A DNA stretch of 64,000 nucleotides, taken from Lentisphaerota bacterium. GTDB lineage: Bacteria; Verrucomicrobiota; Lentisphaeria; Victivallales; Victivallaceae. The DNA lies in NCBI GenBank assembly GCA_015061775.1, contig SUVY01000007.1, positions 1 to 64,000 on the forward strand. Direction: 5' to 3'. A model generated the notes under the pieces. The model searched no databases, was not told the origin of the DNA, and saw only the letters and a program-made list of their open reading frames with translations. This document shows, in pieces, positions 1-38,710 of the stretch (its first letter is position 1; each line of letters starts with the position of its first letter). The position numbers and the translations under genes were made by a program.

Positions 1-155
1 ACTTTTCCACATACAATATCTCCGTTCACTCCGTTCAACTCCGTTCTTCTCCGTTCGGGAGCCTTCCGTTTTCTCAAGCCGGACTGCGTGGCTTGGCTTC
101 TTTCAAACAATAGATAAAGGCTGTTGCACTCCTCTTTCGAGGTTTCGCAACAGCC
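1..155. repeat. 155-bp direct repeat copy 1 (truncated by window edge); matches 9382-9536 with 3 mismatches and no gaps
   Basis: Direct visual alignment; differences at positions 5, 115 and 146 only; identity stops right after GCAACAGCC. Confidence 0.95.
118..155 (-). terminator. Rho-independent-type hairpin downstream of 189..1301
   Basis: Minus strand GGCTGTTGC-GAAACCTCGAAAGAGGAGT-GCAACAGCC then TTTATC; inner CCTC/GAGG stem. Confidence 0.6.
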
Positions 156-188
156 ACTTCTGTTATAAGGGAGTGTCGAAGCGGAGTA

Positions 189-8666: not shown

Positions 8667-8742
8667 AAAGATGGGATTTTTTTTGATGATATGCCGATGT
8701 ATTACATGTACTGTGCGTTTGTCTGTTCAGTTTGAAATAAAA

Positions 8743-8834
8743 GGCTCCGCTCCCTGTAAGGGCAGGTAAAAGTAAATAAAAAGTTTTTCGCTTTCTTTCG
8801 CATCATCTCCCCATATCGGGAACAAAGCTAATAA
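8743..8834. repeat. dispersed element flanks without the central palindrome
   Basis: ggctccgctccctgtaagggcaggtaaaagtaaataaaaag...gcatcatctccccatatcgggaacaaagct, aligns to both flanks of the element at 16095-16262. Confidence 0.75.
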
Positions 8835-9381
8835 AAAAAGGGGCAGTTGCAAAACCTTATTGTTTCAGCATCGTATGGTGAGGGAGTTTAAGAGGCTGCT
8901 TGCCTCTTAAAAATCTCCCGGCAGGGGAGAGTCCCCTGCACCTCAAGATACGTAAAAATTTCATTTTTCCGTATCTGCCTTTGGGGATTTTTTCGGACTG
9001 CTGTTCTTTTTATTGTGACTTTCCGCTCCCGGCTGTCCGCCTCTTCCCTGCGTTCGGCTCCGGGCGGCATAGTAGCCGCCCCTGAGCAGCCTTTTCTGGC
9101 TGCTCAGGCACTCACATCCGTGCGATGCGCAAGGGTGGATTTCATCCCCCCTTTGAACCCCCTGAGCAGGGCAGCCTGCCCTGCACCTGCCCTGCACCGA
9201 TTTTTCTATCGGTTCAGGGCGACTTAATGCGATGTGTATAGACGACTGGGTATATTTTTTGCGCTGCCGCGCAAACTCACGCGGTTGTTTGCGGCGGTGT
9301 TTGGCGCTTGGGTATGTTGCACGCTGTTGTTCGCGGCGTAATGCACGGCTAAGTTGCGGCGCAGACAATGGCGGGCGGAAT

Positions 9382-9536
9382 ACTTCTCCACATACAATAT
9401 CTCCGTTCACTCCGTTCAACTCCGTTCTTCTCCGTTCGGGAGCCTTCCGTTTTCTCAAGCCGGACTGCGTGGCTTGGCTTCTTTCAAACAATAGAAAAAG
9501 GCTGTTGCACTCCTCTTTCGAGGTTTTGCAACAGCC
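9382..9536. repeat. 155-bp direct repeat copy 2
   Basis: 98% identical to 1-155. Confidence 0.95.
9499..9536 (-). terminator. Rho-independent-type terminator downstream of 9560..10423
   Basis: Minus strand GGCTGTTGC-AAAACCTCGAAAGAGGAGT-GCAACAGCC-TTTTTC. Confidence 0.7.
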
Positions 9537-9559
9537 CCGGGGGAAGACTTCTGGAAAGG

Positions 9560-10423
9560 TCAAAGGTCTTTGAGCATGACGGGAGCAGTGTCTTCTTTGT
9601 TGAGGTACACCGCGTGTTTGCTTTTGAGAGCTGTGGCGTTGGTTCTGATTTTGTACTGGATCGGCTGGTTGAGATCGACGTGACCGTCTGCCCAGAGGGC
9701 GGCACTTCTGCCGTTGTGGTTTGGCATGATTCCGGTGGAGCTGGTGTTGTAGTATTTCCAGGTCGGAGCGACTCTCTTTATCGAAGAGACGTAAGTGCTG
9801 GCTTCAACTACGCACGCCATATCGCTCGGACGCTTCATTCTGGATATCTGGATTCCGGTTCCGCCTATATCATCTTTGTTGCCGGTGAGTGCGAGCATCG
9901 AGGGGTCGGTGTCGGTCTGATTCATAAAGTGACCGTCGGGGTCGTTGAACGTCGCATAGGAGCGGTTTTTGGCTGTTCCGAGTTTTCTTGCCGCATCATA
10001 GCTTGGTGCTTCGCTCGAAGGACAGAAGAACATATCGTATTTCTGGACGTAGTTGCGGCAGATTTTTTTGGCAAGCGGCTTATCTGAGGTGCTGCCGTAC
10101 TTGTTGTAATAATTCCAGGAGATCAGACCGAAGAGCGGAATTCCCTCTTTCATAGTTGAGTCATCAACTTTCGGATACCAGAGCCAGATGACGTCTTTGG
10201 CGTCCTGGGCGTACATCGCCATTCCGAGACCGATCTCTTTCATGTTCGAGGTGCAGCTGCTGGTCTTTGCTCTCTCTCTTGCGCTTGAGAGCGCGGGCAT
10301 CAATATCGCGGCAAGAATAGCGATGATCGCTATCACAACCAACAGTTCGATCAGGGTAAACCTTGCAAGGTTTATCTGTTCATGGTGAACAGATACTTTT
10401 CTCTTTTTGAATGCAGAAAGCAT
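9560..10423 (-). CDS. prepilin-type N-terminal domain / H-X9-DG protein
   Basis: [50 protein letters not shown] (H-X9-DG). Confidence 0.88.
10373..10395 (-). other. leader-embedded hairpin (10-bp stem, 3-nt loop)
   Basis: Minus strand TATCTGTTCA-CCA-TGAACAGATA within codons VSVHHEQI. Confidence 0.75.
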
Positions 10424-16094: not shown

Positions 16095-16262
16095 GGCTCT
16101 GTTCCTGACAAAGGTAGGTAAAAGCAAATAAAAAAGTTTTTTCGCTTTTCTTGAAAGGGTGAGAGGGGCGCGGGGAGAGAGGGAAAACTTCTTTTCTCGC
16201 GAAAAGAAGTTTTCCCGCTTTCCCCGCATCATCTCCCCATATCGGGAACAAAGCTTAATAAA
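16095..16262. repeat. dispersed element with palindrome copy D
   Basis: 16171-16226 CGGGGAGAGAGGGAAAACTTCTTTTC-TCGC-GAAAAGAAGTTTTCCCGCTTTCCCCG, 26-bp stem with 2 mismatches; flanks match 8743-8834. Confidence 0.9.
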
Positions 16263-16287
16263 AAATCCATAAGCAGGGGAAGTTTTT

Positions 16288-38647: not shown

Positions 38648-38666
38648 AATCAGTTGAGCATAAAGA

Positions 38667-38710
38667 GGCTGTTGCAAAACCTTCTGAATGTGAGCAATAG
38701 CCTTTTTTAT
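38667..38710 (+). terminator. Rho-independent terminator using the GGCTGTTGCAAAACCT arm
   Basis: GGCTGTTGC-AAAACCTTCTGAATGTGA-GCAATAGCC-TTTTTTATT (one mismatch). Confidence 0.75.

Follow-up and report, generated by a model that had tools for sequence, protein, structure and literature searches.

The staphylococcal insertion sequence IS1272, a member of the IS1182 family, is reported to replace DNA stem-loops and to make no target duplication (PMC5678879). The stem-loop targets of the composite transposon TnSha1 include confirmed terminators, again with no target-site duplication (PMC4923244), and in both systems the terminal repeats are about 16 bp long (PMC5678879, PMC4923244). Bacterial MITEs have no gene, occur in many copies and have only their terminal repeats in common with an autonomous insertion sequence (PMC3852290). 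The element described here is like IS1272 and TnSha1 in its stem-loop and terminator targets, in the apparent removal of the target hairpin and in the lack of a target duplication. It differs from them since both are staphylococcal elements with a transposase gene, whereas it is gene-less, belongs to Lentisphaeria, has another end sequence and has a body built as a mosaic of hairpins. It resembles such MITEs in the respects named above, though it is long for one at 700 bp, contains a shuffled series of hairpins and apparently replaces its target rather than duplicating it. BIME and REP sequences are mosaics of palindromes, extragenic and often located after genes. The element is like them in these three properties and unlike them in having defined transposon ends and a link to the IS1182 type. 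We suggest, with a probability of about 85%, that it is a MITE of an IS1182/IS1272-type insertion sequence, which is mobilised in trans and replaces stem-loops.

The window, i.e., the whole stretch of 64,000 nucleotides that was analysed, comes from contig C33 in the draft genome (107 contigs, 2.70 Mb) of a gut Lentisphaeria bacterium (G000). Positions 8840-9538 hold a complete, 699-bp copy of a dispersed, gene-less element. The following features define this copy, its neighbours and a second, incomplete copy in the window:

1-157, plus strand: half of another copy, with its right end, truncated where the contig begins
7553-8590, minus strand: neighbouring gene for a GntR/LacI-type regulator, oriented with its 5' end toward the left end of the element
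8840-8857, plus strand: left (A) terminal inverted repeat, GGGGCAGTTGCAAAACCT
9484-9538, minus strand: right end, matching the ends of insertion sequences in genomes of the same genus (up to 93% over 55 bp)
9521-9538, minus strand: right (B) terminal inverted repeat, AGGTTTTGCAACAGCCCC
9560-10423, minus strand: neighbouring prepilin-like gene, whose stop codon is 21 bp from the right end

The two repeats are 18 nt long and differ by one mismatch, as the preliminary description had proposed. Because their outermost two to four letters vary among copies (GGGG, GAGG, GTGG, AGGG, GGAG), the conserved core of the terminal repeat is approximately GGCTGTTGCAAAACCT. A search of the genome with the element gives 61 matches, one of which is full length at 92% identity (contig C103, 707 bp), and the borders of the copies coincide with the inverted repeats. 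Neither of the outcomes that the preliminary description had named as refuting it is thus seen. In all, 31 left ends and 29 right ends were typed, and both ends are present in five copies, of 613, 699, 707, 755 and 802 bp. The copy number, counted from the stretches around matches, is at least about 31, and it may be higher because many contigs terminate within a copy. The body is found in two species only, and the right-end 55 bp are distributed more widely in the genus. The exact core of the element is also present in the sheep-colon MAG Lentisphaeria bacterium RGIG5525, which is probably the same as one of the same-genus genomes (G002). The earlier statement that the element has no convincing coding sequence holds: open reading frames of 200 and 113 amino acids run across it without a Pfam match, and the longest ATG-initiated frame in the full copies (58-83 amino acids) is not common to them. 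A coding element was rejected on these two grounds.

The relationship to insertion sequences comes from the ends. The right-end 55 bp match, whole or in part, ends in most of the other same-genus genomes searched. At one such locus (L113, genome G022) an end of the element's type precedes an open reading frame beginning MAYFTNSQGYLFLCSDIPFEEKQ, which has a Pfam DUF772 match and, in its N-terminal part, matches the NCBIfam IS1182-family transposase model at 1e-14, a partial match below the full-length cut-off. This transposase is truncated; an internal deletion is followed by C-terminal codons and the repeat AGGTTTTGCAACAGCCCC. In the genome under study, the copy on contig C94 (L101) still has, next to its hairpin body, what is left of the first codons of the transposase, and the same junction is present in the contig-end fragments C16 and C60. 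Many copies, coincident borders and ends in common with an insertion sequence thus support the earlier proposal of a non-autonomous mobile element. In another genome (G011), elements with this left end and 35 codons of the transposase are joined to a different hairpin-rich sequence, which is tandemly repeated. This sequence was rejected as a homologue of the element body, since no homology is seen as far as the comparison goes. At locus L181 of G011 (contig C31), tandem units of about 900 bp combine a hairpin-rich block, which is conserved, with short direct repeats (CCCGGCGATATCTCCCGCAAA-like) in an array; the units adjoin a partial 5S rRNA match, and the block has no Rfam family.

A search of 25 genomes gave no DUF772 transposase in the element's own genome, a draft in which many contigs end in the element, or in most of the genus, where only truncated relatives were found. 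A search of 35 same-genus genomes with the transposase N-terminus likewise gave truncated copies and no full-length autonomous partner. Among other candidates, proteins with DUF772 from other families in the order were rejected because they are without the element's ends, and a plasmid collection gave only distant IS1182-family relatives (<60% identity). An active MITE would be expected, though not by strict definition, to have a complete autonomous partner in its genome. Repeats are often missing from draft assemblies, and such a partner may have been lost from this one. Because its own genome has no DUF772 match, the working transposase is something that we infer. At two loci in relatives (L024, L113), a promoter immediately follows the terminator hairpin, just inside the end of the insertion sequence; it consists of TTGTTT and TATAAT with 17 bases between them. 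The MITE has kept the TTGTTT hexamer of this promoter and lost TATAAT.

The location of the copies points to the kind of target. A gene 3' end is faced by 49 of the 60 typed ends and a 5' end by 11 (p = 8e-7 versus 50%), with the longest nearby open reading frame, rather than an annotated gene, taken as the neighbour. Most of the 3'-facing ends (36/49) are 12-69 bp from the stop codon. The share that faces a 3' end is about the same for left ends (26/31) and right ends (23/29), and no strand is therefore preferred. Just outside the ends, seven bases are mostly A (0.3-0.8 depending on the position, compared with 0.27 farther out), as expected of sequence adjoining a terminator. We inspected orthologues of seven flanking genes in the relatives G001 and G002. 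Textbook terminators are found at a comparable distance in orthologues at L150, L151, L152, L154, L159 and L166; two or three orthologues have no clear terminator, and the orthologue terminators cannot be aligned to the single base. Many copies near gene 3' ends, together with an interior made of short palindromes, would also be expected of a REP/BIME-like mosaic moved by a transposase of the RAYT type, or by another that acts on single strands, instead of an IS1182 enzyme. We consider this very improbable, because the element has defined terminal inverted repeats and these are common to an IS1182-type DDE element.

The element also ends in a terminator of its own, and related hairpins occur alone:

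9500-9536, minus strand: intrinsic terminator, a hairpin followed by a T run (TTTTTC), -25 kcal/mol, with none of 500 shuffles as stable
38664-38708, no strand assigned: solitary terminal-hairpin copy between convergent open reading frames, in a terminator position 17 bp after a stop codon

In the window, the right-end hairpin is 21 bp behind the prepilin-like gene. Solitary terminal hairpins (about 40 nt, without the element body) are mostly located 15-28 bp after stop codons, both in this genome and in relatives. Besides the copy at 38664-38708, these hairpins of the IS1182-type end are seen at L033, L036, L037, L060, L064, L065, L080 and L094, in genomes throughout the genus and in one from a different family. 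They may be minimal elements or remnants, or they may represent an older terminator which the insertion sequence resembles.

As to the insertion process, the preliminary description had seen no clear target-site duplication, and none is present in the five complete copies. This is informative since it is consistent with insertion that replaces a stem-loop. Further evidence comes from a second MITE family, R2, which has the ends GGCTCTGTTCCCGACAAAGG and TCGGGAACAAAGC, 61 matches in the genome, two interior versions and several copies with 8-9-bp target duplications. Examples are window positions 16113-16265, loci L120-L148 and the copy next to the main element:

8743-8829, plus strand: short R2 copy adjoining the left end, probably flanked by AATAAAA (8736-8742 and 8830-8836)

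Several copies of the main element are inserted within R2 copies. Unoccupied R2 copies read GGGGCGCGGGGAGAGAGGGAAAACTTCTTTTCTCGCGAAAAGAAGTTTTCCCGCTTTCCCCGCATCATC, which is a strong hairpin within a hairpin. On contig C9 (L055), the element takes the place of GGGAAAACTTCTTTTCTCGCGAAAAGAAGTTTTCCC of the unoccupied R2, and both junctions are at the feet of the inner hairpin. At L056, L013, L077 and L091 the element meets R2 at one foot of the outer stem (GCGGGGA..TCCCCGC), and at L085 and L102 at the opposite foot. Precise replacement on both sides is thus seen in one copy only (L055), the six further R2 insertions being one-sided, and for the window copy no empty site can be recovered. We suggest that a trans-acting IS1182-family (IS1272-like) transposase would recognise the terminal repeats through their core and insert the element where DNA forms stem-loops, chiefly at intrinsic terminators shortly after stop codons. 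By analogy with the excision-replacement chemistry described in the IS1272 papers, the target hairpin would be removed and no duplication made. The right end would bring its own terminator hairpin, and because of this termination may be kept.

The interior is dense in hairpins. Those listed in the preliminary description are at the positions given there, except that GCAGGGGA/TCCCCTGC is located ten bases away, at 8921-8939 rather than 8931-8949. Folded as a single strand, the element reaches -302 kcal/mol, compared with a shuffle mean of -234 (z -8.7; 20 shuffles). Seven hairpin slots can be traced across copies, and the interior features (none assigned to a strand) are:

8887-8911: slot 1, hairpin TTTAAGAGGC/GCCTCTTAAA, whose loop differs among copies
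8921-8939: slot 2, hairpin GCAGGGGA/TCCCCTGC, in some copies exchanged for a module of about 86 bp that is also found at slot 5
8946-8976: slot 3, hairpin with a variable loop, its stem in five versions at one position
9062-9108: conserved hairpin pair GGGCGGC/GCCGCCC and CCTGAGCAGCC/GGCTGCTCAGG
9129-9184: slot 5, three alternative hairpin modules
9189-9220: slot 6, hairpin
9259-9274: slot 7, hairpin TTGCGC/GCGCAA with a variable loop

Slots and linkers are reassorted among copies, with most slot pairs failing the four-gamete test, and the module of about 86 bp is present at two slots (2 and 5). The simplest cause of this mosaic would be recombination or gene conversion between copies. Part of it could have been made in assembly, by the wrong joining of similar repeats, in which case the element is real and less shuffled than it appears. 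Numerous contigs of the 107-contig draft do end inside the element. We nevertheless regard this explanation as rather unlikely, because reassortment is also seen in contig-internal copies (C103, C9, C65, C94, C97) and many different junctions recur. Less likely again is that the slots are swapped by structure-dependent replacement, where the same transposase, or a hairpin-specific repair, exchanges stem-loops at their feet. The element would then be an array of hairpin cassettes that shuffles itself and supplies its own landing pads.

The stems persist among copies while the loops vary freely. In slot 3, 97% of cells are paired and 9 of 13 pairs have changes on both sides; in slot 6, 6 of 13 pairs do. 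These paired changes exceed both shuffles (0/500 reach the covariation score) and slid controls. Together with the very stable fold, they are what one would expect if a large non-coding RNA with a defined structure, perhaps acting in trans or as a 3'-UTR, had been spread by transposition and its stems kept by RNA selection. The preliminary description had named such an RNA as a candidate, and in our analysis it finds no support. A search with the Rfam covariance models gave no match, apart from a CRISPR-repeat hit to the terminal hairpin that stays below the threshold, and a known structured RNA family was rejected for this reason. No promoter-like site was found for the element, and it has no preferred orientation toward the preceding gene. 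The covariation comes from few independent stem changes among few stem versions, and true G-U pairs, as intermediates in the varying stems, are nearly absent, a scarcity which also suits DNA-level upkeep of palindromes. The narrow distribution of the body, which is seen in two species only, with the exact core in RGIG5525 as one further genome, also argues against it. Taken together, we find the RNA explanation improbable. Hairpin-guided template switching would also keep the stems paired.

If the element is a stem-loop-replacing MITE, as we favor, its kind is known, and its gene-less form, its phylum, its clear terminator targeting and its shuffled hairpin body together set it apart from the systems described before. 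Insertion that replaces stem-loops is known from the staphylococcal IS1272, and the same pattern is found here for a gene-less element in an unrelated phylum. The dozens of natural insertions are a source for learning the target rules. In addition, the shuffled hairpins are a natural set of variants with which to ask if paired stem changes arise from RNA selection or from DNA-level correction of palindromes, and confusing these two can mislead searches for structured RNA. Finally, since one terminator would be removed and another brought, the element suggests a route by which transposon ends could become the terminators of host genes.
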